Source: a virus
Reading direction: 5' to 3' (one strand)
Virus record (IMG/VR): IMGVR_UViG_3300035670_000767
Location: 1 to 34,402 of that record
DNA: 34,402 nt
This document shows, one piece after another, positions 4,275-16,068 of the stretch. Numbering within the stretch: position 1 is the stretch's first letter; each line of letters starts with the position of its first letter. The notes under the pieces are model-generated. The model saw only the letters and a program-made list of their open reading frames with translations, did no database searches and was not told where the DNA came from. Both the position numbers and the translations under genes were made by a program.

Positions 4275-4300
4275 TACCTCCAGAACAATCGTTCTGACAA
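4271..4300 (-). promoter_or_regulatory. promoter of the replication operon with operator in its spacer
   Basis: On the minus strand TTGTCA (4300-4295) and TATAAA (4276-4271) are 18 bases apart, each a five-of-six match to sigma70 consensus. The perfect inverted repeat CAGAAC-N4-GTTCTG (4281-4296) fills most of the spacer. This is a typical repressor position. The core GAAC-N4-GTTC equals the LexA box known from Gram-positive bacteria, which may be chance or a phage repressor site. Confidence 0.6.
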
Positions 4301-4340
4301 GTACGAAAAATCTTTCATATTTCATAATGTTTTATCCTGA

Positions 4341-4375
4341 TATAACCTAATAGCTCTTAACTATTCGGGAGGATT
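4341..4375 (+). promoter_or_regulatory. -10-like element and conserved leader before the gene at 4376
   Basis: TATAAC at 4341-4346 could be a -10 box, but the -35 position holds no good match. The following leader, CTTAACTATTCGGGAGGATT, closely resembles the leader before the exonuclease gene at 6239 and those at 4765 and 1134. Confidence 0.35.
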
Positions 4376-4696
4376 ATGGCGACTACATCACAGGACAACG
4401 AAACAATTATTTTAATCAACGATGCTGATCTAAGAGATGGCTACTTTAGGTTCTATACAACCAAGGAGTTAGACTATAATAGATTACTCAAGATTGCCGG
4501 AGACTCCCTATTTTCACCGACAAAAGTTACACAAACAAAAGATGGCCTTACTACATCATGGGATTGCAGAGTTCCAGTGTCTTTCCTCCAGCGTAGACGG
4601 TGGTTAATTCGCAAGAAACGGGTAATACCGCCTATCTCTGAGGAGAAAAAAGCAGAGATGGTCGCAAATTTAAGAAAAAGAACTAAAGTTATATAA
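4376..4696 (+). CDS. hypothetical early protein (106 aa)
   Basis: A soluble 106-residue protein with a very basic C-terminal half (LQRRRWLIRKKR and a Lys/Arg-rich tail), suggesting nucleic acid binding, though no domain is recognised. The start has a strong GGGAGG site. The gene stands alone between the divergent promoter region on its left and its own terminator at 4719-4750, so it is a single-gene transcription unit next to the replication operon; a regulatory or replication-accessory role is possible. Confidence 0.65.
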   Translation: MATTSQDNETIILINDADLRDGYFRFYTTKELDYNRLLKIAGDSLFSPTKVTQTKDGLTTSWDCRVPVSFLQRRRWLIRKKRVIPPISEEKKAEMVANLRKRTKVI

Positions 4697-4718
4697 ATTT
4701 CTGCCGATAGCTTATTTA

Positions 4719-4751
4719 ACCGATTGAGCGTTCAGTCGGTTTTTAACTTTT
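4719..4751 (+). terminator. rho-independent terminator
   Basis: A nine-pair stem ACCGATTGA / TCAGTCGGT (one T-G pair) with loop GCGT is followed by TTTTAACTTTT. It lies between the gene ending at 4696 and the lipoprotein gene starting at 4765, so the lipoprotein is expressed either by read-through or from an unseen promoter. Confidence 0.8.
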
Positions 4752-4764
4752 CGGGAGAATAATT

Positions 4765-5001
4765 ATGAAGGTTTATTTTGTTGCTCAGGTTTTATTAGCT
4801 TTTACCTGTATTTACTTTTTGTCTGGTTGCGCTTCAATTATTGGGATTAAGGAATACCAGTCCGGAGATACTCGAATTAGCTTTGTTACTGGGTATGATG
4901 TTGGTGCTGCCTTTAACGGGGTTGATACTGTTGATAACAATAGAGGCATTAAGCCCGGCGCAGGTTACGTCAATACTGCTACGAAAAAAGGTGCATACTA
5001 A
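4765..5001 (+). CDS. small phage lipoprotein (78 aa)
   Basis: An N-terminal hydrophobic signal ends in LSGC (Cys about residue 22), a type II lipoprotein cleavage site. The mature part is about 57 residues, polar and Gly-rich, with no recognised domain. It would be an outer- or inner-membrane lipoprotein. Phage lipoproteins of this size serve in superinfection exclusion or as outer spanins; the mature part is not Pro-rich as in Rz1-type spanins, so exclusion is as likely. A conserved TTCGGGAGAATAATT leader precedes the ATG. The stop overlaps an ATG at 5001 whose frame looks non-coding. Confidence 0.7.
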   Translation: MKVYFVAQVLLAFTCIYFLSGCASIIGIKEYQSGDTRISFVTGYDVGAAFNGVDTVDNNRGIKPGAGYVNTATKKGAY

Positions 5002-5040
5002 TGAAGTACGGTTTAATTCAAGAAATGGTAGGTAGAATTT

Positions 5041-5274
5041 ATGTTCAAAAACGCAGTAGATATCTTTACAAAGTGTATAGCGCACTTAATAACATGGGCG
5101 ATAATAAATTGCGTCCTGATAGGTGCGTATCAAATAGGCCGACACTGGCACTTATACACACTAAAGAACCAAGTAAACATGAGAGAGTTCATAGACTCGC
5201 TGTCAGACCAACAAAGGAGCGATGTAGCAGAGGCTATGTTCTTATACGAAAAGGCTGAAAAAACAGGTAAATAG
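5041..5274 (+). CDS. small single-pass membrane protein (77 aa)
   Basis: Residues about 12-33 form one hydrophobic membrane segment (IAHLITWAIINCVLIGAYQI); the remaining C-terminal half is hydrophilic and ends with an acidic helix. It follows the lipoprotein by 39 bases and may work with it in the envelope, for example in exclusion or lysis. The overlapping frame 5001-5258 is Arg-rich without membrane or domain features and is not annotated. The ribosome binding site is weak (GGTAGG). Confidence 0.55.
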   Translation: MFKNAVDIFTKCIAHLITWAIINCVLIGAYQIGRHWHLYTLKNQVNMREFIDSLSDQQRSDVAEAMFLYEKAEKTGK

Positions 5275-5793
5275 CTAACTTGAGGGCGGGTTGTTAAGAC
5301 CTGCCCTCTCTACAAATTCCCAGTACTTTTTGCTTGCCTGAGCTGTACTCCTTAGCTTCCTATAAAAGGTAGTAGTACAGATTTTATAAGAGCCTTCACT
5401 TCTGCCAACACACTTTAGATACCTTACCCACTCATCATCAGACCAGCGATTCCTGAGTTTTGTCTGCCTTGTTGATCCAGATAATATTCTTGATTCGGGC
5501 TGCTTAAATTTCCTCTCAACTGTGACGCAATATGTCCTTACTTTCATCCCCGCCTGAGTGTAGCTTGTTGCTCCTGATACGTTGTTAGGACCGCCAAGTC
5601 TGCATATAATCCTAGTAATTGTGGATAAACTTGTAGTGACTATGTAGAAGTACTTTCCACGAGGCGGAACGCAGATAATTACATCACCAGATTTGAGATC
5701 CCAAAAGAAATTTGAGTTAAATCTTTTAAGCGGAACATCAGCCTTTTTAGAAAGGGCTGTCGTCTTCTTCAGGCTTAGGGACTTCGATTTCAT
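5275..5793 (-). CDS. hypothetical protein (172 aa)
   Basis: A basic protein of unknown function. The N-terminal 25 residues are Lys/Ser-rich; the rest mixes beta-prone segments (DVIICVPPRGKYFYIVTT) with a basic C-terminal region containing RWSDDEWVRYL. It is the last gene of the minus-strand operon headed by the HTH gene at 6167. Its first 47 bases overlap the end of the preceding gene and no ribosome binding site is visible before the ATG, so a shorter product is possible. The hairpin at 5282-5308 lies in its last codons. Confidence 0.55.
   Translation of the reverse strand: MKSKSLSLKKTTALSKKADVPLKRFNSNFFWDLKSGDVIICVPPRGKYFYIVTTSLSTITRIICRLGGPNNVSGATSYTQAGMKVRTYCVTVERKFKQPESRILSGSTRQTKLRNRWSDDEWVRYLKCVGRSEGSYKICTTTFYRKLRSTAQASKKYWEFVERAGLNNPPSS
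5282..5308. other. long hairpin between convergent genes
   Basis: GAGGGCGGGT and ACCTGCCCTC pair over ten positions (one G-T) with a seven-base loop, just past the convergent stops at 5274 and 5275. There is no T-run on either strand, so a rho-independent terminator cannot be claimed; it may block 3' exonucleases or slow convergent polymerases. Confidence 0.45.
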
Positions 5794-5995
5794 CTAATAG
5801 AGGAAATTGTGTGTTAAGGGTATCTCTTATAGCCGCTACCTGCTCTAAGAAGTAGTAATTTGACTTCTTCCACTCACCAGAAGCCTTATCTTTGTATTGT
5901 TTTTCAATGGTAAAATACTTTTTGTCATCTTTCTGCCAAAGTATTATCGCCACTCCGCCGTCTAGCTTTACTACCTTTATTTTTTCTGCCGCCAT
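5747..5995 (-). CDS. hypothetical protein (82 aa)
   Basis: A small protein with a beta-rich first half (KVVKLDGGVAIILWQKDD, then a KYFTIEKQYKD strand) and an acidic Pro-rich tail ending DDSPF. The acidic end with a terminal Phe is reminiscent of the tail of single-stranded DNA-binding proteins and the size is small for one; this is only a suggestion. It overlaps the HTH gene upstream by 71 bases and the gene downstream by 47, an unusually compressed operon. Confidence 0.6.
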   Translation of the reverse strand: MAAEKIKVVKLDGGVAIILWQKDDKKYFTIEKQYKDKASGEWKKSNYYFLEQVAAIRDTLNTQFPLLDEIEVPKPEEDDSPF

Positions 5996-6167
5996 GCTTA
6001 TTTTTCATCCATTTAAATACTTCGTTTAGATTATATCTGACTGTTTTGCCATGCCTATAGTACGGCAAACCACACTTCTGTCTCCAGTTAAACACTGTTA
6101 ATGTGCAGACACCTAGCACCTGTGTCAGCTCTGCCGTATCTACCATCACAAACTTTTCTTTGTCCAT
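5925..6167 (-). CDS. AlpA/excisionase/MerR-like HTH protein (80 aa)
   Basis: Residues about 8-55 form a HTH_17-type winged helix: TAELTQVLGVCTLTVFNWRQ, GLPYYRHGKTVRYNLNEV and FKWMKNK, the usual order for excisionase/AlpA regulators that bind DNA. The C-terminal 25 residues are very basic. Its promoter (6174-6202, minus strand) overlaps the promoter of the exonuclease gene, so the protein may control the switch between these units. The -10 box ends only seven bases before the ATG and no ribosome binding site exists, so the mRNA is probably leaderless. Confidence 0.75.
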   Translation of the reverse strand: MDKEKFVMVDTAELTQVLGVCTLTVFNWRQKCGLPYYRHGKTVRYNLNEVFKWMKNKHGGRKNKGSKARRRSGDNTLAER

Positions 6168-6173
6168 GATTAA

Positions 6174-6202
6174 ATAATATATTGCTTATTCAAATTTATC
6201 AA
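6174..6202 (-). promoter_or_regulatory. strong sigma70-like promoter of the HTH operon
   Basis: On the minus strand TTGATA (6202-6197) and TATTAT (6179-6174) are separated by exactly 17 bases. Both are five-of-six matches. Transcription would begin at or next to the ATG at 6167. Confidence 0.65.
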
Positions 6203-6210
6203 GATATATT
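6182..6210 (+). promoter_or_regulatory. sigma70-like promoter of the recombination operon
   Basis: TTGCTT (6182-6187) and TATATT (6205-6210) have a 17-base spacer. The promoter overlaps the minus-strand promoter at 6174-6202 almost completely, so RNA polymerase cannot occupy both at once. A leader with TTCGGGAGA follows. Confidence 0.6.
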
Positions 6211-6238
6211 AAAACTTATCTATTTCGGGAGAATAAAT

Positions 6239-7159
6239 ATGGCTAAAATTCTAATTGACAACATCACATTTGAACCGGGCAAAGAGGCTTTCGAGCGTCT
6301 GCATGGTAAGAGTAACTATCTTGGCAGCTCTGAGATTGCAGTAGTCGCAGGGCTGAACAGGTTTCAGACACCCTTGCAGCTATGGATGAAAAAGACTGGC
6401 AGGGATACATCTACTGTCGATAACTGGGCTGTCTATGTAGGCAACCTATTAGAGCCTGTAGTTGGTCAGATGTTTGAGAAGAAACATCCTGAGTACTCAC
6501 TATTAAAAAACTACACTGTATATTCTCATGACACTATTGAGTGGGCAACATGCACTCAGGATTATAACCTTAGCTATCCGACATCATCTTCTGTCGAGAG
6601 CATATTAGAGATAAAGACTTCTGGCATCTGGGCTAAACAAGAGTGGGACAATGGAGAGGTTCCAGACTTTGCGCTCTGTCAGCTACAATGGCAGCTTGGA
6701 ATATTAGGCCATCCATACGGTTATTTAGCTGCCCTGATAGGAGGTAAAGAATACTTTGATAAGGAGGTCAAGTTTAGTCCAGATGCCTTTTCTCAGCTTG
6801 TAGAGCTAGGCGAAAAGTTCCTATCTCTTGTTAAGTCAGACACGCCACCTGATGCAAACTTTGCTGATGATTTAAGCTTTATCAGGCCGACAGTTAAATC
6901 GGTTGAGCTTAATTGCAGAGATTTACTTGATGAGTATCAGATCTTAACCGATGAAATTAAAAGACAAGAAGACATAACAAAGCTCAAACAGCAGGCAAGG
7001 GATACAATCAAAAACAAAATCATTCAGCTTATGGGTGATGCAGGTGAAGGTAAGTGCGGAGATTATCTTGTCACTCGAAAAGTTGTGCCGATTAAGGAAT
7101 CGCTAAGAAAAGCATATGAGCAAATAAGATTTAGTATTAAGACTTTAAAGGAGAAATAA
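6239..7159 (+). CDS. YqaJ/lambda-type exonuclease, viral recombinase
   Basis: A PD-(D/E)xK nuclease of the YqaJ family that would resect double-strand ends for single-strand annealing with the RecT protein at 14838. With the ATG at 6239 the protein has 306 residues. Motifs: YLGSSEIAVVAGL near residue 27-39, GNLLEPVVGQMFEKK with E near 72, CTQDY with the metal-binding D near 108, ILEIKTS with E near 124 and K near 126, and QLQWQLGILG near 150. An in-frame start 57 bases upstream lies inside the promoter and is rejected; the ATG at 6239 has a CGGGAGA site. A hydrophilic coiled region forms the C-terminus. Confidence 0.9.
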   Translation: MAKILIDNITFEPGKEAFERLHGKSNYLGSSEIAVVAGLNRFQTPLQLWMKKTGRDTSTVDNWAVYVGNLLEPVVGQMFEKKHPEYSLLKNYTVYSHDTIEWATCTQDYNLSYPTSSSVESILEIKTSGIWAKQEWDNGEVPDFALCQLQWQLGILGHPYGYLAALIGGKEYFDKEVKFSPDAFSQLVELGEKFLSLVKSDTPPDANFADDLSFIRPTVKSVELNCRDLLDEYQILTDEIKRQEDITKLKQQARDTIKNKIIQLMGDAGEGKCGDYLVTRKVVPIKESLRKAYEQIRFSIKTLKEK

Positions 7160-7160
7160 A

Positions 7161-7685
7161 ATGCCTAAACTAATTGAAGCTATGAAACAGATAAAAGATT
7201 TGCAGCGTAAAGCAGCAGATATAAGAGAGAAGATACAAAAGCACCATGCTGATATTGATATTGAGGTGCCAGTGTACGGCACACCTGAACAGCAGCGTGA
7301 TATGGTCTCTCAGTGGCTACAGGCACACAGTGATATTGTTAAAGAGATTGGCAAGCTAAGGTTTGCTATTCAGAAAACAAACATTCAAACACCTGTCACA
7401 ATCATACTTGGCGAGAAGTCGGTGACTAAAACAATAACCGAGTGGATATCAAGGCGCAAAGATTTAGCAGCTCTCGACGCTCAGGCTTGGGATTGTTTAA
7501 ACGACAAGGGCATTAAGCCTGCTATCAACATTCAAAAGACTGATGGCACCTTACAAGAGGTTAAGATTCGCAGGTATTACGATCCTAAAGTCAAAGATGA
7601 CAAAAGGGAGTTGTACCGTTCAGAGCCATCTCTTATTGATGGATCACTGGAAGTCGTAAACGCAGTAACAGATTTAGTTTTATAA
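7161..7685 (+). CDS. hypothetical protein, possibly DIP1984-like (174 aa)
   Basis: A helical N-terminus (residues 1-35, coiled-coil-like) is followed by a mixed region with KSVTKTITEWISRRKDLAAL near the middle and a C-terminal beta-prone part. The 'T-TEWI-RRK-L' segment is reminiscent of the small DIP1984 family, but this is weak. It lies one base after the exonuclease gene and is surely co-transcribed, so an accessory role in recombination or replication is possible. Confidence 0.65.
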   Translation: MPKLIEAMKQIKDLQRKAADIREKIQKHHADIDIEVPVYGTPEQQRDMVSQWLQAHSDIVKEIGKLRFAIQKTNIQTPVTIILGEKSVTKTITEWISRRKDLAALDAQAWDCLNDKGIKPAINIQKTDGTLQEVKIRRYYDPKVKDDKRELYRSEPSLIDGSLEVVNAVTDLVL

Positions 7686-7750
7686 TTAACGAGCAACAGG
7701 CAGAGCAAAAATATTATGAAGGAGGGTTAGACTAAACCATAGAGGTCAAC
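7681..7750 (+). promoter_or_regulatory. possible promoter upstream of the tRNA-like element
   Basis: A perfect TATAAT lies at 7681-7686 over the stop codon of the preceding gene, but no good -35 is seen at the expected distance. The rest of this stretch is non-coding, with a short imperfect inverted repeat GGTTAGACTAAACC near 7727-7740. Confidence 0.25.
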
Positions 7751-7823
7751 AGTGATATAGCTCAGTTGGTAGAGCAGTTCCCCATTAAGGAATGTGTTAT
7801 TGGTTCGATTCCAATTATCGCAA
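7751..7823 (+). tRNA. tRNA-like element, anticodon position AUU, atypical
   Basis: All arms of a 73-nt tRNA fold: six pairs of acceptor stem with an A-A mismatch at 1-72, a canonical D arm GCTCAGTTGGTAGAGC, an anticodon stem GTTCC/GGAAT with the seven-base loop CCATTAA, a five-base variable loop and a perfect T arm ATTGG-TTCGATT-CCAAT. Two features are abnormal: position 33 is C, not the near-universal U, and position 34 is A, giving AUU, which bacterial tRNAs for Asn do not use. No CCA is encoded. It may be a decayed tRNA, a tRNA mimic or a decoy for host tRNA-cleaving defence. Confidence 0.65.
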
Positions 7824-8034
7824 CAAGCCCACAATGCTACTTGTGAACATATTTAAGGCTTAAGACCGTAAGATGTAAGTTGGTAAGGTTTAATTTTAGT
7901 AAGTACGTAGGACATAAGAGTTAAGACTGGGCTAGGCTTAAAAACCTAGAAATCGGAGTTTTCTTTTTTAGTCTCCTTGAATGTTTAGAACTTCGCTTCC
8001 TGTCTGGGTGCTCACTTTTTTTAGAAGGTAATTT
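7824..8034 (+). ncRNA. structured non-coding stretch after the tRNA-like element
   Basis: No gene is seen in these 211 bases. Visible structure: AGCCCA (7826-7831) can pair with TGGGCT (7928-7933) to close a domain of about 108 nt. Inside it is the hairpin CACAA-TGCTAC-TTGTG (7830-7845), and GTAAG occurs four times between about 7868 and 7902. The hairpin CTAGG/CCTAG (7932-7949) and the T-run TTTTCTTTTTTA (7959-7970) may form a weak terminator. This could be a non-coding RNA processed together with the tRNA-like part, or simply decayed sequence. Confidence 0.35.
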
Positions 8035-9069
8035 ATGAAATACGGAATGGACTTTTTACTGGGTACTAAATATCCAAAGACTGTTAAGCAGGAGCATCCC
8101 CGAAGTTATGGTCTGGGTATATTTTTAGAGGTTAGCGGCGTTCCGCCTGCATATTCTCTGATTGATGAAATGGCAGGGCTTGGCATTCCCTTTATCAGAG
8201 TTCAGATGCTATGGAAAGACCTGCATGACTTTAAGCCTTCTGATGTCTCAATAGTTGAGCAGAGGATGAAGAAGCTTGTTCCTATAATAAATAAGCATAA
8301 AAACGTAAGATGGTATATCTCCCCTTGCTGCGAGCATGAGTTGAAAGAAAACCAATTTGAACCATTCGCTCAGGCAGTTTTAAAATATTGCCTGTTGTGT
8401 ACCGTTGTAAATAGTCCGAATAATGGAAAAGGGCATGTTAGTAAAAAATACCTCAACGAGTACCACCACGAAGAAAAGCCACGAGGCGGAAGTGACAGGT
8501 TTGCTGCTAGCTTTGACGGGGCTAACATCGTTGATAGTAATGTCACTAATTATATCAATAATTACGCTAAGGCCGAGTATCTCATGGTCTGGAATAGCCA
8601 ATGCAACGGAAACAGAAAAATCTTTAAGCCCGGAGAGAAAAGAGGACCAAAGGATTTTATCGACAGAGCCAAACGGATTTACTGGCCTACTCCAAAACAA
8701 ATTGATAGCTGGATATGGCTCACTACCCACGCAAAAGGATGTACTTCTGTGCCGAAGAACTGGGTCTTTAAAAGCCACTCAGACCAACATGATATGCCGC
8801 CAGAGGGGAAGGACCAAAAGCCTGTTTGGGTTAAACTGCCAAAGTTTAGGGCAATAGAGGTAAGGGCCAGAAACGGGCAGTTAGTCGATAAGGCTCCCTA
8901 TTTTGGCCCGTTCTCAGGCGGTGGATATAGGTATTACCACTCAGATTGGGGCTTTACGTTAGCTGAAAAGGCTATCAGAATCCAAGGTGATGGGGTGTGC
9001 GATATTTTTGCAGACGGTAAGAAAATGGGTCAGGTCAATTTGGCGTTCAGAGATGGATCGTACAGATAA
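8035..9069 (+). CDS. TIM-barrel-like protein, possible glycoside hydrolase (344 aa)
   Basis: The order of segments resembles a (beta/alpha)8 glycosidase fold: YGLGIFLEV, then GIPFIRVQMLWKD, KNVRWYISPCCEHEL, CTVVNSPNNGKG, FAASFDGANIVDS and EYLMVWNSQCNGN. The strand-4 'N-P' position has VNSPN where GH families often have NEP, so a classic acid residue is absent there. The C-terminal third contains a conserved-looking WVFKSHSDQHDMPPEGKDQK segment and a final beta domain. A soluble carbohydrate-active or scaffold protein is possible. There is no signal peptide, and its place among early plus-strand genes argues against a tailspike. Confidence 0.5.
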   Translation: MKYGMDFLLGTKYPKTVKQEHPRSYGLGIFLEVSGVPPAYSLIDEMAGLGIPFIRVQMLWKDLHDFKPSDVSIVEQRMKKLVPIINKHKNVRWYISPCCEHELKENQFEPFAQAVLKYCLLCTVVNSPNNGKGHVSKKYLNEYHHEEKPRGGSDRFAASFDGANIVDSNVTNYINNYAKAEYLMVWNSQCNGNRKIFKPGEKRGPKDFIDRAKRIYWPTPKQIDSWIWLTTHAKGCTSVPKNWVFKSHSDQHDMPPEGKDQKPVWVKLPKFRAIEVRARNGQLVDKAPYFGPFSGGGYRYYHSDWGFTLAEKAIRIQGDGVCDIFADGKKMGQVNLAFRDGSYR

Positions 9070-9259
9070 ACTTACAGAGATGGAGGCAAGGGCTAAAGTT
9101 TTAGGATTAGACCCTCAAGAGACACAAATATTTCTGCTTGGCGCTAAGGAGTTTGCAGCACTAACAGAAAAATATGCACACGCTGGAGAGTATGCAGGAG
9201 ATCCGAGAGGTATTTATGTTTTTGAGATGTTATACCTATTAAATAAAAAGGTTGAGTAG
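9053..9259 (+). CDS. small hypothetical protein (68 aa)
   Basis: An acidic helical protein starting inside the end of the 344-residue protein gene (17-base overlap). A longer in-frame start at 8987 would add basic residues overlapping the upstream gene and is less likely. No domain is recognised. It begins the run of very short, tightly packed genes that continues to position 14410. Confidence 0.5.
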   Translation: MDRTDKLTEMEARAKVLGLDPQETQIFLLGAKEFAALTEKYAHAGEYAGDPRGIYVFEMLYLLNKKVE

Positions 9260-9433
9260 ATGACAATCAAGCACACAAAACACGATGCGCTGGCAAAACT
9301 GGCACAGCTTACAGAAGCTAAGTTGCCACCTGTCGAAGATCCACCACCGCATAAAAAAGAAACAGACAAAGACCACAGAGCAAGAATTAACCGGGAGAGA
9401 CATCCCAAGATTGATAAAATATCTGATGAGTGA
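9260..9433 (+). CDS. very small hydrophilic protein (57 aa)
   Basis: An open frame from the ATG at 9260, directly after the previous stop, to TGA at 9433. The product is rich in Lys, Asp, Glu and Pro (LPPVEDPPPHKK in the middle) and is probably disordered. It overlaps the next gene by eight bases. Function unknown; the call rests on the tight packing with its neighbours. Confidence 0.45.
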   Translation: MTIKHTKHDALAKLAQLTEAKLPPVEDPPPHKKETDKDHRARINRERHPKIDKISDE

Positions 9434-9518
9434 ATTGGTAGTAATAGTTTGCTATGCGTTTCAGATGGCGCTTCTTATGGCAATCATTGTTGTGACGGTT
9501 AAAATTTGGAAACTTTAG
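9426..9518 (+). CDS. micro-protein with one membrane segment (30 aa)
   Basis: The ATG at 9426 overlaps the previous stop (ATGAGTGA). The 30-residue product is almost entirely one membrane helix (AFQMALLMAIIVVTVKIW) with a short basic end. Such proteins can modulate membrane proteins or act as small holin-like or exclusion factors. A longer reading of the same frame from 9285 overlaps the previous gene and is rejected. Confidence 0.45.
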   Translation: MSELVVIVCYAFQMALLMAIIVVTVKIWKL

Positions 9519-9531
9519 CAGCGAGGGCAGG

Positions 9532-9756
9532 ATGACTGATTTTGATTTAGAGAAGTTTGCGAGACAAGGCGTTGAGCATTTAGATCCTGAGTTTTATCTT
9601 GATGTGAAGGCCTTAATTAAAGGCCGGAAAGAGGGGTATTTTACTGCGCTAGGATTAGTACAGGCCGAACTAGCCGAAGTAATCCCGGAGCATAATCCAG
9701 CGCATCAAACGATTCAGAACGTGTTTAAAAAACTACGAGGACAGGATGACAAGTAA
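9532..9756 (+). CDS. small hypothetical protein, FDLE family of this phage (74 aa)
   Basis: A helical acidic protein with a good site (GAGGGCAGG) before the ATG. It starts M-T-DFDLEKF and contains GYFTALGLVQAELAEV and a terminal FKKLRG. The protein at 10646 starts M-K-NFDLEQY and has FLKALELVEEELL and TKLKGG in the same order, so the two look like paralogues. The gene overlaps the next by 11 bases. Confidence 0.6.
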   Translation: MTDFDLEKFARQGVEHLDPEFYLDVKALIKGRKEGYFTALGLVQAELAEVIPEHNPAHQTIQNVFKKLRGQDDK

Positions 9757-9952
9757 ACAGAAAGCAATCAGCCAGACACTAAAAGAGGCTAAAAAATACG
9801 GATACTATGCGCCTATTTATCTGGATGGATTTAATGATGCTCTTAAGCAGGTAGTTAAAGAGCTAAAGAAAAAAACCAATCCTGACTCATGGGGAGCGTT
9901 TGCATTACCGACAGTCGAGGAAATTATTATGAGGCTTAAAGATGACAAGTAA
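9746..9952 (+). CDS. small hypothetical protein (68 aa)
   Basis: A basic helical protein whose middle (YLDGFNDALKQVVKELKKK) loosely follows the pattern of the FDLE proteins at 9532 and 10646. Its start and the start of the following gene share the sequence GATGACAAGTAAAC, so each stop overlaps the next start in the same way, as if the junction had been duplicated. Function unknown. Confidence 0.55.
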   Translation: MTSKQKAISQTLKEAKKYGYYAPIYLDGFNDALKQVVKELKKKTNPDSWGAFALPTVEEIIMRLKDDK

Positions 9953-10283
9953 ACTACCAGAGCTATTGGAATGTCCTTTTTGTGGGGAAACTAAGTATTT
10001 GCATTACCCGATTGGAGAAGTCCGCACTTACTACACAGAGTGCCAATCTTGTAACGCTATGGGGCCGCAGTTTGCTAAGCAAGGCAAAGAGGAAGCAATC
10101 ACAGCATGGAACACTCGCCACCATTCAGCCTCACGAGATCGTGCAATTGCGAGGGCGGCTTGGGAGAAGTGCAGCACTGCTTTCTTTAGCTCAGATCCGA
10201 GCGTGTCTTTTATGGCAGCAGACGACTACCTGCAAAGCGATGAGTTTTTGAGTTTGATTGGGGAGAAGAAACATGGTGCATAA
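9942..10283 (+). CDS. Lar-like restriction alleviation protein (113 aa)
   Basis: The N-terminal 60 residues match the Lar family: LLECPFCGETKY, then CQSCNAMGPQ, then KEEAITAWNTRH, that is CPFCG - CxxC - G - EAI-AWN-R. The two cysteine pairs form a zinc ribbon. Lar of the Rac prophage modulates type I restriction-modification in favour of unmodified phage DNA; many phage members are known only by this signature. The C-terminal half lies outside the domain. Translationally coupled to its neighbours in the small-gene operon. Confidence 0.8.
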   Translation: MTSKLPELLECPFCGETKYLHYPIGEVRTYYTECQSCNAMGPQFAKQGKEEAITAWNTRHHSASRDRAIARAAWEKCSTAFFSSDPSVSFMAADDYLQSDEFLSLIGEKKHGA

Positions 10284-10644
10284 AAAAGGTTGCAAATTAG
10301 GCAAGTACAATAAGCGACAAAAACTTGAGTTTATCCATGGAATAGAAATCGAAAGTGGGGTAGAGCCGCCCCCCATGAATATGACCTCACCTTGGAGTTA
10401 TTTAGCTTGGAATATGAAAGCAAACGAAAGCGTCTTGTTAAAAAGCTATGACCATGTGATGAAGTTGAAACATTCTATTTTAAAACTTGGCTTCAAGACT
10501 ATTAGAAGAAAGATAGGGGAAGATCAGTGGAGGATCTGGAAGGTACATAAGAAGTATAATAAATCCCCGTCAGGCAATCCAATTCAATACTCTAAGAGAA
10601 CCCTAGATGTTATTAGTTCGGGTATTAGATCGGTTAGAGGATAA
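10273..10644 (+). CDS. hypothetical protein, possible nucleic acid binding (123 aa)
   Basis: A basic protein with a GGGGAGAAG site before the ATG at 10273; an in-frame start at 10258 is less favourable. The C-terminal half (NMKANESVLLKSYDHVMKL, then GFKTIRRKIGEDQWRIWKV) follows a pattern seen in many small phage proteins, 'K---S-L---------R--i---g-k---R---g--RIWk', whose role is unknown but is thought to be DNA binding. This family memory is loose. It overlaps the Lar gene by 11 bases. Confidence 0.6.
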   Translation: MVHKKGCKLGKYNKRQKLEFIHGIEIESGVEPPPMNMTSPWSYLAWNMKANESVLLKSYDHVMKLKHSILKLGFKTIRRKIGEDQWRIWKVHKKYNKSPSGNPIQYSKRTLDVISSGIRSVRG

Positions 10645-10645
10645 A

Positions 10646-10873
10646 ATGAAAAATTTTGATTTAGAGCAATACTTAAAAACTCTGGACGAAATGCCAGCTT
10701 GTAATATGCTTCCTAGTAACTTAGGGCGCATGGTTTTTCTCAAGGCTTTGGAGCTGGTGGAGGAAGAGCTTTTACCCTCTTTTTTAGGAGTGGAATATGC
10801 AGAAGCCGAAATAAAAGGGGTTATTACAAAACTAAAGGGAGGGGGAAATGAACATCAAGCGAGAGGTTTATGA
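10646..10873 (+). CDS. small hypothetical protein, FDLE family (75 aa)
   Basis: Starts at the ATG one base after the previous stop, with TTAGAGG upstream; a start at 10607 would overlap the previous gene by 38 bases. The acidic helical product shares FDLE near its N-terminus and a following 'AL-LVEEELL' helix with the protein at 9532, suggesting gene duplication. It overlaps the next gene by 26 bases. Confidence 0.55.
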   Translation: MKNFDLEQYLKTLDEMPACNMLPSNLGRMVFLKALELVEEELLPSFLGVEYAEAEIKGVITKLKGGGNEHQARGL

Positions 10874-11045
10874 CCGTATAGTTAAGGCATTAGAGCGAGA
10901 GCTTAGCGTGATTACGTCAAAGATAAATGGCAATCGCTATTCTTTTCGTAACTTAGAAAAGGAACAGACTGTCCTAAAGCGTGAGAAGGCGAAGCTGCAT
11001 GAAATGCTTAGAGACTTACGACCTAAAATCAAAGAGGCAAAATGA
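10848..11045 (+). CDS. small coiled-coil protein (65 aa)
   Basis: A highly charged, helical protein with a heptad-like pattern over residues 10-60 (AL--EL--I-SKI, NLEKEQTVLKREKAKLHEML). A strong GGAGGG site lies before the ATG inside the previous gene. Probably a dimeric coiled coil; the partner is unknown. It overlaps the next gene by four bases (ATGA). Confidence 0.6.
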   Translation: MNIKREVYDRIVKALERELSVITSKINGNRYSFRNLEKEQTVLKREKAKLHEMLRDLRPKIKEAK

Positions 11046-11212
11046 AAAAGCAACGTAAGGCGAGGGAGTGGTGGGTAGTGATATATACTCCGCCTGCATC
11101 AAAATATACAGACCTAATAACGTATAGGACTAAGAAGGCTGCAATGGATTGGCACAAGAAAGAGAGCGTCTTTAAAGTCCGAGAAGTTTTACCAAAAAGG
11201 AAAAGCAAATGA
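11042..11212 (+). CDS. very small basic protein (56 aa)
   Basis: An open frame joined to both neighbours by ATGA overlaps. The product is rich in Lys, Arg and Trp: N-terminal KKQRKAREWWVVIYTP and C-terminal VLPKRKSK. The compact size with aromatic and basic residues would suit binding to RNA or DNA, but no known domain is seen. The double overlap is the main support. Confidence 0.55.
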   Translation: MKKQRKAREWWVVIYTPPASKYTDLITYRTKKAAMDWHKKESVFKVREVLPKRKSK

Positions 11213-11532
11213 CTAAATCAAAACCCGATTCGGATAAGGCTATCAGCCATCTTGAAGAAGCTATTGAAAAAATCGGCCACAATCAAATTAAGAGCTGGCG
11301 GAGTGATGAGTATGCAATCGGAAGAAGCGAAAGTGTTTTGCTAGTTGGCGGTATCGAGATTGGAATATTCGCTAGAGCAGCGGCAAGGGAAGCTATGGAG
11401 TGGCTACTCGCCGAGGCGGAGAAGATGGCGATTGATATTGACCTTGATATAGAAGAAGGATGGTCAGGTGTTTACTTAAATAATGGGTTAATTAAGCTAT
11501 CAGACCTTAAAAAACTAATTTCAGAAGGATAG
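11209..11532 (+). CDS. hypothetical protein (107 aa)
   Basis: A soluble acidic protein: a helical N-terminus (HLEEAIEKIG), a hydrophobic segment SVLLVGGIEIGIFARAAARE too short and charged to span a membrane, and an acidic C-terminus with a tandem of D-I residues. No domain recognised. It is followed by the GTG-started HNH-like gene. Confidence 0.6.
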   Translation: MTKSKPDSDKAISHLEEAIEKIGHNQIKSWRSDEYAIGRSESVLLVGGIEIGIFARAAAREAMEWLLAEAEKMAIDIDLDIEEGWSGVYLNNGLIKLSDLKKLISEG

Positions 11533-11536
11533 GACA

Positions 11537-12070
11537 GTGCCAACAGTACATAAAGCACAAGTGATAGAAGTTGATAAGCCAAATAGAAAACGTAGATGTG
11601 TTTACTGTTGTAATATTTTTATTGCTAACATTACAGAGGTAAAAAAAGGGAAAGCTAAATTTTGTAATGCAAAATGCTATGCTGAATATCGTAAACTTCC
11701 AAAACCAAAATTACAGGACAATCGAGAGTATGTTTACAAGAGAAAGCTTAACTATTACAGATCGAGGCATGGGCTATTAGTCTATAGATACTTGTGGATG
11801 GTTCGGAGATGTAAGCAATTGCAAGCTTACAAAGCTAGGTCTCCAAACTTCACTAAGGAGGAATTTCTAAGAAAGTTTAAAAACGACAATAATTTAATTC
11901 GATTAATAGAAAACTGGAAAGTCTCTGGTTATTTAGAGAGGCTAACCCCTACGGTAGATAGGATTAATAACAAACTAGGATATCGTTTAGATAATATTCA
12001 ATTTTTAACTATGGAAGATAATACAAAAAAGTATCGTGAAATAGATTCAAAACTAGCGGGGGAAGAATGA
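11537..12070 (+). CDS. HNH-like endonuclease of phage type (177 aa)
   Basis: The N-terminal zinc-binding region has CVYC near residue 14 and CNAKCY near residue 46. The C-terminal block TPTVDRINNKLGYRLDNIQF followed by LTMEDNTKKY matches the 'SVDRID--KGY--DNIQ-V----N--K' signature of phage HNH endonucleases related to homing enzymes. The catalytic His pair is less clear, so activity is uncertain. GTG start with AAGGAT upstream. It sits inside the small-gene operon without disrupting neighbours, as free-standing homing endonucleases often do. Base composition is more AT-rich than its neighbours, hinting at later arrival. Confidence 0.75.
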   Translation: MPTVHKAQVIEVDKPNRKRRCVYCCNIFIANITEVKKGKAKFCNAKCYAEYRKLPKPKLQDNREYVYKRKLNYYRSRHGLLVYRYLWMVRRCKQLQAYKARSPNFTKEEFLRKFKNDNNLIRLIENWKVSGYLERLTPTVDRINNKLGYRLDNIQFLTMEDNTKKYREIDSKLAGEE

Positions 12071-12384
12071 ACTGTAGAAGATGTGGCAATCATCAATATA
12101 ATTATCAGGACGCTTTATGCTCAAATTGTATGATTATGGAGCAAATGAAGGCTAACGAAAATTTGAAGCCTATTAACTACGTTGCATACGAAGGCAGATC
12201 GACAGCAGACATCGAAGCCGAGCAACGCCAGCAAGAGCGCAAGCGGTTGTTTCAGGAGGTGGCTTTAGCTCTTATGTCAAATAGCTATACAACGGTAAAA
12301 AATGCGGACGAGCTAATGAAGCCAGTTGAGCTACTTACAGAAGCACTTCTGCAAGCTAGCGAGAAGTTCGCAAAGGGGGAATGA
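12067..12384 (+). CDS. zinc-ribbon / coiled-coil protein (105 aa)
   Basis: Starts with CRRCGN then CSNCM, a short four-cysteine zinc ribbon within the first 21 residues, followed by a Gln/Glu/Arg-rich helix (residues about 60-75) and a helical end. Its ATG overlaps the HNH gene stop and its stop overlaps the lipoprotein start. Function unknown; a nucleic-acid or protein adaptor is possible. Confidence 0.65.
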   Translation: MNCRRCGNHQYNYQDALCSNCMIMEQMKANENLKPINYVAYEGRSTADIEAEQRQQERKRLFQEVALALMSNSYTTVKNADELMKPVELLTEALLQASEKFAKGE

Positions 12385-12830
12385 TGAAATACCTGATCCT
12401 AGCCCTACTCTTAACCGGATGCTCTCTAAAGAAAGGCAACTACCCTGAACCTAAAGCCTACTCTGTGCATATCATTAACAAGCAAGCGTGTGCCTCAGAA
12501 TGGGAGGAGGCGAAAGAATACTTCTTAAGCATCGGAATCCGCATCGTCGAGGACACGAAAGCACCTTACCGCTATGTCTGCGTGCATAATCCGCTGGGCT
12601 TGATGCGGAAAGTTCTGTGTCCCATTGATGTTGTAGGGCTAACAACTTACGGCGGTCAGGATACGGAGACGGCTTGGAGCTTTAACAGCACTAAGACGAT
12701 TGTTCATGAATTAGCCCATTTGATTTTCAAATTGCCGCATGGCTCAGGGATTATGTTCCCAGACGATTTAGGGACGCAGCTATCGAGAGGATTTAGTGAG
12801 AAACAGTTGGAGGCGTTATCAAAAAAATAA
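12384..12830 (+). CDS. minimal metzincin-like zinc protease lipoprotein (148 aa)
   Basis: The signal LILALLLTGC ends in a lipobox (Cys 13), so the protein is anchored in the envelope. Near residues 106-125 lies TIVHELAHLIFKLPHGSGIM, with HExxH (His 108, Glu 109, His 112), a third His at 119, and IMFP immediately after, resembling the Met-turn of metzincins. The third His is one residue later than in HExxHxxGxxH. At 148 residues it is far smaller than usual metzincins. An ATG at 12381 is an equally possible start. Its role might be to cut envelope proteins. It ends in a slippery A7 run with a GGAGG upstream. Confidence 0.7.
   Translation: MKYLILALLLTGCSLKKGNYPEPKAYSVHIINKQACASEWEEAKEYFLSIGIRIVEDTKAPYRYVCVHNPLGLMRKVLCPIDVVGLTTYGGQDTETAWSFNSTKTIVHELAHLIFKLPHGSGIMFPDDLGTQLSRGFSEKQLEALSKK
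12809..12830 (+). promoter_or_regulatory. candidate -1 programmed frameshift site
   Basis: In the reading frame of the protease the last codons are TCA AAA AAA TAA, forming the slippery heptamer A AAA AAA (12821-12827). GGAGG lies at 12809-12813, seven bases upstream, like the stimulatory Shine-Dalgarno element of dnaX. The stop follows directly. The -1 frame is open for 55 more codons to 12994. Confidence 0.5.
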
Positions 12831-12994
12831 GAATTAGTAAGAAAGCGATAGAACTATCTAAGCTCGATGATGAATATCTTACGAAGCTGCTAGAAAAGAA
12901 AATAAAAAGAATGGAAAAGATTCTTAGAGAAAAAGCAACAGAAGGATATTTCGGAATTATTAGTGAAAAACAACTTAAGGAGATTGGGAAGTGA
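12818..12994 (+). CDS. -1 frame extension or start-less small gene after the protease
   Basis: The -1 frame is open from 12818 to TGA at 12992-12994, with a charged, coiled-coil-like product (ELSKLDDEYLTKLLEKKIKR, then MEKILREKATEGYFG). No ATG, GTG or TTG begins it; the only internal ATG (12911) gives 27 residues and has a weak ribosome binding site. The stop overlaps the GTG start of the next gene (GTGA), the hallmark of coupled translation in this operon, so it is probably translated. Options: -1 frameshifting from the protease, rare ATC/ATT initiation after GGAGG, initiation at 12911, or a one-base assembly error in the A7 run. Confidence 0.5.
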   Translation: MKKIRISKKAIELSKLDDEYLTKLLEKKIKRMEKILREKATEGYFGIISEKQLKEIGK

Positions 12995-13224
12995 GCGAGG
13001 TTGAAGTTAAACAGTTAGGGCTGATAGAGGCGCAACAGCATCATCATGTCGTTATTATGACAAATTCAGAATGTAAGGAGTTTCCGTTAGGGATAGGCTT
13101 TGCAAATGATTTAAACGAAACAGAGCATGTTGTGTTCTTAGATTTACATACAGCAAACGAGTTCGGGCAGAAATTCTTTTCTGCTTTTAACGATATGTTA
13201 ATTAAAGTTCGGGGAGATCAATAA
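12991..13224 (+). CDS. hypothetical protein (77 aa)
   Basis: GTG start with TAAGGAGATT upstream, overlapping the stop of the open frame before it. The product has QQHHHVVIMTNSE near the N-terminus and a helical C-terminal half (LHTANEFGQKFFSAFND). No domain recognised. Confidence 0.6.
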   Translation: MSEVEVKQLGLIEAQQHHHVVIMTNSECKEFPLGIGFANDLNETEHVVFLDLHTANEFGQKFFSAFNDMLIKVRGDQ

Positions 13225-13242
13225 ACAAATTGAGAGGATGAA

Positions 13243-13470
13243 ATGAGCGAAAATAATACAATGTCAGTATTTGTCGTAGTGGCTCCATCGGGAGATGTTT
13301 TTAGTAGTCAGGTTACGGCCCAAACAGCAGACGAAGCGTTGTATAAATGTGCAAATATTTCTAGATGTCCACAAATTAGAAAGGCTCAAGCGAAGCAGAT
13401 GGAAAAAGAGGGTTGGCAAGTTTATTCAAAGTTAAAATGGGACTATTTAAATTCAGAGAGGATGAAATGA
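13243..13470 (+). CDS. hypothetical protein (75 aa)
   Basis: A small alpha/beta protein (FVVVAPSGDVF strand, then an AQTADEALYKC helix). The leader GAGAGGATGAAATGA occurs here and again before the next gene at 13467, a repeated junction. No domain is recognised. Confidence 0.6.
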   Translation: MSENNTMSVFVVVAPSGDVFSSQVTAQTADEALYKCANISRCPQIRKAQAKQMEKEGWQVYSKLKWDYLNSERMK

Positions 13471-13838
13471 AAACAGAAATAGAAGAAATAGAAATTAATG
13501 GGACTAAGTACGTCAAGAAAGGCAGCGATCAACAGTTTGCGGTCAATGTTGATGGCTTGCCGTATGTAATTATTAGAGCAGACAGGGCTGGCGTATTTGC
13601 TGGTTACTTGAAAGAGGATAACGACACAGTTGTTATTCTTCATAACGCAAGACGGCTATGGTACTGGTCTGGTGCAGCGTCTTTAAGCCAGCTTGCAAAC
13701 GAAGGCGTTAAAAAGCCTAACGATTGCAAGTTCCCCGCTGCAAACACAACGATAAAAATAACTGGAGTGATTGAAAATATTCCTTGTACCGAGCAAGCAC
13801 GAAAAATAATTGAAGGAGCGCCAGTATGGTCAGCGTAA
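13467..13838 (+). CDS. DUF6948-like protein (123 aa)
   Basis: Starts at the ATG at 13467, after GAGAGGATGAA; a start at 13413 would overlap the previous gene. The central RADRAGVFAGYLKED and NARRLWYWSGAASLSQLANE followed by GVKKPNDCKFP, and the end IIPCTEQA-like segment, match a phage protein family I know as DUF6948, whose function is undescribed. The conserved 'RRLWYWSGAASL' core is strong. It overlaps the hexamer-repeat gene by 13 bases. Confidence 0.75.
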   Translation: MKTEIEEIEINGTKYVKKGSDQQFAVNVDGLPYVIIRADRAGVFAGYLKEDNDTVVILHNARRLWYWSGAASLSQLANEGVKKPNDCKFPAANTTIKITGVIENIPCTEQARKIIEGAPVWSA

Positions 13839-14008
13839 TAGATTCTGGCTTTGGCGATGGCTGTGGCTTTGGCTCTGGCGATGGCTCTGGCGATGGCTCT
13901 GGCGATGGCTGTGGCTTTGGCTTTGGCGATGGCTGTGGCGATGGCTCTGGCGATGGCTGTGGCTTTGGCTTTGGCGATGGCTGTGGCGTAACTATTTTGG
14001 AGGATTAG
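13826..14008 (+). CDS. Gly/Asp/Cys-rich hexapeptide-like repeat protein (60 aa)
   Basis: Between a short start (VSVID) and end (VTILED) the protein is a run of two-residue steps, Gly followed by Asp, Cys, Phe or Ser, with 23 units encoded by GGCNNT hexamers. The ATG has GGAG nine bases upstream inside the DUF6948 gene, and the stop is followed by GGAGG for the next gene, favouring this frame. The overlapping frames would encode all-hydrophobic and Trp/Leu/Arg repeats. The low-complexity product may be a disordered or metal-binding tail; function unknown. Confidence 0.5.
   Translation: MVSVIDSGFGDGCGFGSGDGSGDGSGDGCGFGFGDGCGDGSGDGCGFGFGDGCGVTILED
13847..13984. repeat. 23-copy GGCNNT hexamer repeat
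   Basis: Twenty-three uninterrupted hexamers of the form GGC-GAT, GGC-TCT, GGC-TGT or GGC-TTT. Order within the run repeats larger blocks such as GAT-TGT and TGT-TTT-TTT-GAT, indicating growth by unequal exchange. All three forward frames stay open across it. Confidence 0.9.
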
Positions 14009-14011
14009 ATT

Positions 14012-14410
14012 ATGAAAACAACACTACTATACGTATTCATAGCCGCAGGGCTGGTTATTACTATGACTTTGATGAGCTTGGAGGCTAGGGCTGAGAAGCT
14101 GATTATCAAAAACAAGTGCGCTCCATATCTAAATGAAGATCCGGCCGGATGGCCTTGTTACGACATAACTCAGGGGCTGGATAACCCTAAGCGGCTAGCT
14201 CGCTATGCTCAGGTGAAACGCAAGGCAAAAGCGCAGGGGGTAAACTTTAAAGGCATAACCGTTGTGCTTAACGACGCTGCATGCACACCGAACAGATGCA
14301 CGTATAAATTCCACGCTAAAGGTAATAAAGCCTACTTACCTCTAATGGATTGTTGGCAGGATTTCACTGATGGCATTAGAGTTTTAAAGCAAGCAGATAG
14401 ATTTAATTAA
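14012..14410 (+). CDS. secreted periplasmic protein (132 aa)
   Basis: Residues 1-28 form a Sec signal peptide (hydrophobic LYVFIAAGLVITMTLMSL then ARA before cleavage). The mature part is about 105 residues, basic, with several cysteines (KCAPYL, PCYDI, AACTPNRCTY, DCWQ) likely to form disulfides in the periplasm. No family is recognised. A GGAGG site precedes the ATG. Confidence 0.65.
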   Translation: MKTTLLYVFIAAGLVITMTLMSLEARAEKLIIKNKCAPYLNEDPAGWPCYDITQGLDNPKRLARYAQVKRKAKAQGVNFKGITVVLNDAACTPNRCTYKFHAKGNKAYLPLMDCWQDFTDGIRVLKQADRFN

Positions 14411-14423
14411 AAGGAAACATTAA

Positions 14424-14825
14424 ATGCAAAACAATACATTCAACGAATATTTCGCCAAAGGGCAGTTTTATGAAATGGTTAATGGGACTAAAACCCTATG
14501 TGATGTTAAGCAGTTTGCCGTTACGGTAGCAGCCAGCCAAACGGATGCTTCTCTGGTCGCAGTAGTAGCGAATAAAAGGATTAGGCTTCTAAGCCTAGCT
14601 GTTAAGTGCCATACAGCAGACTGTGATTATGCGCTAACAAGCAAGCCATCCGCATCGCCGGGGGCTGTTATTTTTACAGCTTGGGCAATGTTCAAGCAGC
14701 TTAACTTTTACCCTTATCAACAGATTGGGATAGTGGAAACTGGGATAGACAACGGTCTGGCAGTATCTACAGGCTCAGGCGGAGAACTAAGATTCTCAGG
14801 AAGATATATAGAGTTTACGCCATAA
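14424..14825 (+). CDS. hypothetical beta-sandwich protein (133 aa)
   Basis: An AAGGAAA site precedes the ATG. The beta-prone sequence (QFAVTVAASQTDASLVAVVA, then KRIRLLSLAVKC, and a final GELRFSGRYIEFTP) suggests a small beta sandwich like many phage virion-associated proteins, and is similar in style to the 103-residue protein at 27443. Its presence between a periplasmic protein and RecT in an early operon is odd for a virion gene. Function unknown. Confidence 0.6.
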   Translation: MQNNTFNEYFAKGQFYEMVNGTKTLCDVKQFAVTVAASQTDASLVAVVANKRIRLLSLAVKCHTADCDYALTSKPSASPGAVIFTAWAMFKQLNFYPYQQIGIVETGIDNGLAVSTGSGGELRFSGRYIEFTP

Positions 14826-14837
14826 GGAGATAACAAC

Positions 14838-15641
14838 ATGAGTAATTCAAATTCAGAACTATCAAATAAACTTGTCGCTCAGGGCGCTTCGATTAAGCCT
14901 AGTAGCTTTGTTGGTATAATGAAGCCTTGGTATGAAAATAGGCAGCAAAATATTGCAGACCTCTGCGGGAGTGCTGAGGATGCAAAGAGGCTTTACGTTG
15001 CAGCCATGAGCTATATCAGCAACAGGCCAGAGCTGATGAAATGTGAGCCAAAGAGTTTGCAACAATGCATCATGCAAAGTGCGACACTGAACCTGCATCC
15101 GGGCGTACTAAACGAGGCTGATTATCTTTGTTTCAAAGGTAAGGCTACTTTTGTCTGTGGTTATCAGGGGCTAATTAAGCTTGCAATCCAGAGTGGTATT
15201 GTCTCTGACATATCATCTAATGTTGTGTACGCAGCAGATGTCTTTGACTATCAGGAAGGCTCGAACGCTTTTATCAAGCACAAAAAGTTTCTTGGTAGCA
15301 GGAAAGATAGAGGTGAAAGGGTATGCGTGTATGCAATCGCCAATATGGTTGCAGGAGGGGTAAAGTTTGTCCTATTAACGCCAGAGGAGGTTCTATCTAT
15401 CAAGAACAAATCTATGGCTAAAAATAGCTCTTATAGCCCTTGGAATAGTGACGTAGACAATGAAGACGAAATGTGGAAAAAGACAGCGATCAAGAGATTA
15501 TCTAAGCTACTACCAAAGTCCACAAAGGCACTAAACTTTGCAAAGGCAGTAGCTCTTGATAATGCTGCTGAAAGTCCAGACGATAAGGACGCTTCGCTCT
15601 TGATGCCAGTGTTCGATGAATCAGAGTTTTTAGAGGAGTAA
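14838..15641 (+). CDS. RecT family single-strand annealing protein
   Basis: The family landmarks are present in order: residues about 55-85 PELMKCEPKSLQQCIMQSAT, LHPGVLNEADYL, FVCGYQGLIKLAIQSG near 95, the VFDYQEGSNAF region, and the C-terminal MWKKTAIKRLSKLLPKS. RecT anneals complementary strands after 5'-3' resection by a partner exonuclease, here the YqaJ nuclease at 6239. The pair is normally adjacent but here is separated by over 7 kb. Length 267 is normal. The acidic C-terminus ends with EFLEE. Confidence 0.92.
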   Translation: MSNSNSELSNKLVAQGASIKPSSFVGIMKPWYENRQQNIADLCGSAEDAKRLYVAAMSYISNRPELMKCEPKSLQQCIMQSATLNLHPGVLNEADYLCFKGKATFVCGYQGLIKLAIQSGIVSDISSNVVYAADVFDYQEGSNAFIKHKKFLGSRKDRGERVCVYAIANMVAGGVKFVLLTPEEVLSIKNKSMAKNSSYSPWNSDVDNEDEMWKKTAIKRLSKLLPKSTKALNFAKAVALDNAAESPDDKDASLLMPVFDESEFLEE

Positions 15642-15854
15642 ATGGATATTAAAAATGGTAGCGATGTAGTGCTAAAACCTATTTTCGTCAAGAAAGGGAG
15701 TAAGTATGAGGAAGAATTAAAGCCGTACTTTGTTACGTACTTTGACGATAGCGTAATCGAAGTGCCGCTTAACAGGGGAAATTACAAGAAGTATGCAATA
15801 TCATTCCCGAAGTTAAAGAGAAAGATGGAGAAAGTTCTTAAGATTAAACCTTAG
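15642..15854 (+). CDS. hypothetical protein (70 aa)
   Basis: Starts immediately after RecT. A small basic protein with alternating hydrophobic strands (DVVLKPIFVKKG, YFVTYFDDSVIEVPL) and a Lys-rich end. It overlaps the convergent holin-like gene by 11 bases. It may assist recombination, but this is by position only. Confidence 0.6.
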   Translation: MDIKNGSDVVLKPIFVKKGSKYEEELKPYFVTYFDDSVIEVPLNRGNYKKYAISFPKLKRKMEKVLKIKP

Positions 15855-16068
15855 TCTTAATCCACTTATGCAGCAGACCTAAGATAAGGTAAGCATTACC
15901 ACCAAGCTCTATAATCTTAGTTATGGTGTTGAGTAAATCTGCTCCAAGCTCCTCTGTTATCGGGAAGTCGGGAAAGAATATAGCAATAACTGATATTGCC
16001 AGTCCTATCCCTGTTTTCTTGCCGTTAAATGGTAGCGCTTTGAGTATCTTGTCCAATCCTACAATCAT
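15844..16068 (-). CDS. holin-like membrane protein (74 aa)
   Basis: Two hydrophobic stretches, GIGLAISVIAIFFPDF (about 20-36) and AYLILGLLHKWI (about 58-69), joined by a polar loop, with a basic C-terminus. Size and position at the end of the virion gene block fit a phage holin, forming the lysis hole in the inner membrane. It is the last minus-strand gene and no terminator is seen after it. Confidence 0.6.
   Translation of the reverse strand: MIVGLDKILKALPFNGKKTGIGLAISVIAIFFPDFPITEELGADLLNTITKIIELGGNAYLILGLLHKWIKTKV

Follow-up and report, generated by a model that had tools for sequence, protein, structure and literature searches.

In programmed -1 frameshifting of the dnaX type, and likewise of the IS3/IS911 type, an AAAAAA-type slippery heptamer follows a Shine-Dalgarno (SD)-like element, and the -1 frame stays open past the stop of the 0 frame; a downstream stimulatory structure is common, but not universal, in programmed -1 frameshifting. 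Bacterial genes that start at AUU, AUC or AUA are rare, infC being an example. These codons are listed among the rare natural starts of bacteria (PMC6397469), and in ATGA-type termination-reinitiation pairs two genes on the same strand share a short overlap, with an intragenic SD sequence (PMC6728339). Here we describe a junction that resembles each of these systems in part, in a window that comprises the 34,402 nucleotides (nt; positions 1 to 34,402) of the IMG/VR virus record IMGVR_UViG_3300035670_000767. The stop codon of a lipoprotein-like open reading frame (ORF; 12381-12830, plus strand) lies there inside a -1 frame that is open from stop to stop at 12800-12994, and an earlier note on this DNA had proposed that programmed frameshifting extends the first into the second. 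We consider it probable that the -1 frame is a cistron of its own, whose start codon is non-AUG or has been lost; this weight, like those given to the other explanations below, is a matter of judgement and was not computed.

The elements at the junction, all on the plus strand, are present as the earlier note described them. The upstream ORF (149 amino acids (aa), ending ...FSEKQLEALSKK TAA) closes with the codons TCA AAA AAA TAA, its stop is at 12828-12830, a run of seven adenines (A7, 12821-12827) forms the heptamer A_AAA_AAA in phase, and an SD-like GGAGG (12809-12813) lies 7 nt ahead of the run. The same GGAGG is also 4 nt ahead of an ATC codon (12818-12820) in the -1 frame, so that the junction reads GGAGG CGTT ATCA, with an SD at start spacing and in the same phase, and with ATCA, one base off ATGA, where the neighbouring junctions show NTGA. 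The gap of 4 nt falls inside the SD-to-start spacings of the window's genes, and since GGAGG precedes ATC at the distance where genes of this operon start, they can equally be read as a normal start site whose codon is not AUG. From 12818 the frame encodes (I/M)KKIRISKKAIELSKLDDEYLTKLLEKKIKRMEKILREKATEGYFGIISEKQLKEIGK; it is open for 55 codons from 12827, and its TGA stop (12992-12994) overlaps the GTG of the next gene at 12991, again as had been described. The statement that the frame has no standard start codon holds for its first 31 codons from 12818, which contain no ATG, GTG or TTG, but an internal ATG, lacking an SD, occurs at 12911.

We propose that the -1 frame may be a small cistron of about 58 codons within a series of early phage genes that overlap one another, in which GGAGG would be the cistron's own SD and ATC would occupy the position of the ATG. 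If the frame is translated, initiation or coupled re-initiation would take place at AUC while ribosomes finish the upstream gene, AUA at 12827 and AUU at 12833 being less likely starts. The ATC could be a weak natural start, or else what a single-base loss or variation has left of an earlier ATGA junction. A7, which in the -1 frame supplies two lysine codons (AAA AAA) and the opening base of ATA, would then be part of an N terminus (M)KKIRISKK and not a designed slip site. The arrangement shares with the ATGA-type pairs of PMC6728339 the common strand, the intragenic SD, the short overlap and ATGA/GTGA neighbours, and differs from them in that it starts with ATC and, owing to an upstream stop placed 9 nt further downstream, has an overlap of 13 nt. 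With the rare AUU/AUC/AUA-start genes it shares an AUN codon after an SD as the sole plausible start; unlike in those genes, the start is here a putative one, no homologues having been found.

The -1 frame at 12800-12994 is probably coding, since an open frame of 55 codons arises in only 28 of 5000 dinucleotide shuffles of the stretch (0.6%), since it scores best among the six frames under a codon model, and since its stop forms a GTGA overlap with the next gene. The codon score is itself ambiguous, lying at the 9th percentile of true frames and being equalled or exceeded by 15% of false frames; position-specific base use is gene-like, with few T at position 1. From these features we infer that the frame is translated. 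The earlier note had likewise taken it to be translated, and in this it agrees with our analysis, as it does on the non-standard start; its further claim that the frame lacks a start of its own does not consider the ATC at SD spacing. A single-sequence AlphaFold model of the peptide is that of a small helical protein and is fairly confident, having a predicted local distance difference test (pLDDT) score of 79.6, with helices at residues 8-14, 18-41 and 50-57, and a fold search with the peptide gave no significant match. Weak tblastn matches of the frame in two loci (L036 and L061) were set aside as coiled-coil or composition matches within unrelated genes. Both consecutive ORFs end in similar peptides (12785-12830 and 12945-12990; SEKQLEALSKK vs SEKQLKEIGK), and we considered a duplication of this SEKQL motif (GFSEKQLEALSKK / IISEKQLKEIGK), which shuffling did not support at a significant level (p ~0.08 for protein, ~0.05 for DNA).

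The style of the operon agrees with such a cistron. Six of the eight other junctions between 11042 and 13470 are 4-nt NTGA overlaps (11042, 11209, 12067, 12381, 12991, 13467), the earlier note having likewise seen overlaps at other junctions of the operon, and the remaining two are short gaps (11537, 13243); the overlap at 12991 involves the -1 frame itself. There the next gene (12991-13224, plus strand) starts at a GTG within the shared GTGA, 8 nt behind an SD, TAAGGAG, that lies inside the -1 frame. In these operon genes just 3.3% of the 4-mers in coding phase differ from ATGA by one mismatch, and simple arithmetic over two codon positions then puts the chance of meeting such a 4-mer at the right SD spacing at about 7%. 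A gene of 56 aa at 11042-11212 on the plus strand (MKKQRK..., MKKQRKAREWWVVIY...), too short for the 60-aa ORF list, has 4-nt ATGA overlaps at both ends and resembles the -1 frame product in size and in its MKK... beginning, but it has a standard start. At seven other plus-strand gene ends (9952, 11045, 11212, 12070, 12384, 13470, 13838) the -1 frame is open for at least 50 codons, and in all seven it proves to be an ordinary ATG gene overlapping by 11, 4, 4, 4, 4, 4 and 13 nt, respectively. Hence, the overlapping of genes makes open -1 frames beyond stops common in this operon, and the 13-nt overlap at 13826/13838 is a precedent in size for ATC as the true start. In addition, sixteen slippery heptamers occur in phase elsewhere in the surveyed plus-strand genes, and one of these, TTTAAAT at 13446-13452, leads into a -1 frame of 128 codons that is the ordinary next gene (13467-13838). 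Thus, in this operon the combination of a slippery site and a -1 frame that continues beyond the stop can come about with no frameshifting involved.

A programmed -1 shift at A_AAA_AAA, with the GGAGG ahead of it as stimulator, would extend the lipoprotein by a helical tail of 55 aa, and we regard it as unlikely. It accords with a -1 frame that is open for 55 codons beyond the slip, with an in-phase heptamer of the form X_XXY_YYZ, and with the location of that heptamer in the only overlap of the two frames (12800-12830, 31 nt); since the frames overlap nowhere else, whatever admits ribosomes to the -1 frame has to do so within these 31 nt, barring a start at the ATG at 12911. SD-like stimulators of -1 frameshifting have been reported at 6-17 nt before the second base of the motif (PMC4066793), a range that includes the 8 nt found for GGAGG, yet this GGAGG is equally an initiation SD. 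The locus departs from dnaX-type sites in having 7 nt and not 10 nt between SD and shift site, a start-like codon at SD spacing, no downstream stem-loop or pseudoknot (the downstream RNA is without unusual structure, z +0.04 to +0.83 vs shuffles), and a weaker heptamer, since in E. coli A_AAA_AAG shifts far more readily than A_AAA_AAA (PMC5009743); moreover, no homologues were found that could show conservation. An SD followed by ATC at start spacing is the simpler reading, and with the absence of downstream structure and the control site at 13446, frameshifting into the -1 frame is not required. That the phage makes its lipoprotein in two forms, through an SD-stimulated -1 shift at the stop that needs no downstream structure and appends a charged helical tail, is, if anything, slightly less likely again. 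In E. coli reporters, apparent -1 expression from some constructs has been ascribed to initiation that an SD directs to an AUA of the -1 frame 7 nt downstream (PMC4066793), and, by analogy, this is the same confusion of initiation with frameshifting as would occur here.

Several points nevertheless weigh against a separate cistron. Its start codon is ATC and not a standard one; AUC is a very weak start, so that a gene kept functional in this way would be unusual, and searches of IMG/VR, phages, plasmids, genomes and 14 capsid-related contigs yielded no homologue that has a standard start. An in-phase A7 at a junction is rare: in the fetched loci, none of 1421 starts has one, and a single ORF end among 1421 has one immediately before its stop. 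Frameshifting would account for it directly. GGAGG is found 17 times in 4300-15900 and just 3 of the 17 precede a called start, so that it is weak evidence by itself, and we rejected it as a marker specific to gene starts in this genome. A one-base indel in the A run, whether an assembly error, a real frameshift or a phase variant, would make the true or ancestral gene a plain fusion of ~205 aa; indels favour homopolymer runs, and the two frames meet exactly at A7, but an indel leaves the GGAGG start spacing before ATC and the near-NTGA junction as coincidences, and wherever else in the operon a long -1 frame follows a stop, it is a gene of its own. We hold this to be a little more doubtful than the programmed shift; the earlier note had made an error in the A run its main alternative, and we keep it as a rival, while the non-AUG start had been overlooked. 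Less likely still, the stretch may no longer be translated, being a gene remnant or an AT-rich gap open by chance; the ambiguous codon score and the non-standard start would fit this, whereas the rarity of the open frame among the shuffles, the GTGA overlap at its end and the gene-like base use argue against it. Transcriptional slippage on A7, by which a fraction of A8 mRNAs would encode the fusion, is highly improbable, as seven bases are generally a short run for efficient slippage and nothing specific supports it here. As a precedent, the rescue of an interrupted tssM gene by transcriptional frameshifting has been reported (PMC4256274).

If the -1 frame is indeed a separate cistron, the junction illustrates how an ATGA-type overlap whose start is non-AUG or lost can mimic a programmed frameshift, with the SD of the start taken for a stimulator, the N-terminal lysines for a slippery run and the next gene for an extension. 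This mimicry should be checked for whenever densely packed phage operons are scanned for frameshift signals. Were frameshifting the true explanation, it would add the case of an envelope protein to a list dominated by dnaX, insertion sequence (IS) elements and tail chaperones.

The product of the upstream ORF has a lipoprotein-like N terminus (LLTGCS) and a HELAH motif, and by these motifs it may be a secreted, zinc-protease-like protein. The earlier note had called it a metalloprotease, for which the lipobox and HELAH are indeed present, but searches of Pfam and PDB with the protein gave no match, a PHROGs search gave nothing at E<0.001 (top match E=0.047), and the metzincin pattern HExxHxxGxxH with its Met-turn is not matched: HELAHLIFKLPH lacks the Gly and has its third His one residue too late, and IMFP is Met-turn-like only. 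A single-sequence structure model of the protein was uninformative (pLDDT 35.6).

No homologues of the upstream ORF or of the -1 frame were found in the collections named above, from which near records may be missing, and a PDB search, a search with the HELAH...LPH DNA pattern and searches with neighbouring genes likewise returned none. Relatives of other genes were found, of the capsid gene at 40-47% and of the DUF6948 gene at up to 73%, and the pair formed by the upstream ORF and the -1 frame does not occur in any of the fetched stretches around them. In the window (13467-14008) and in the loci L020-L095, the DUF6948 gene is followed, often with an overlap, by an ORF of alternating Gly-X repeats (GDGSGYG..., encoded by hexanucleotide DNA repeats), which is present in 51 of the 67 IMG/VR DUF6948 loci with enough downstream sequence. 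DUF6948 is not mentioned in the literature searched. This conserved pairing looks unrelated to the -1 frame, and more interesting than it. About 0.65 kb downstream of DUF6948, two related phage contigs (L021, 6007-6756, and L022) encode a secreted protein in which HEIGHLNGAEH, an exact metzincin motif, occurs together with YIMHP. Finally, ARAGORN assigns the anticodon ATT to a tRNA-Asn gene at 7751-7824 of the window, which is unusual, as tRNA-Asn normally has GTT.
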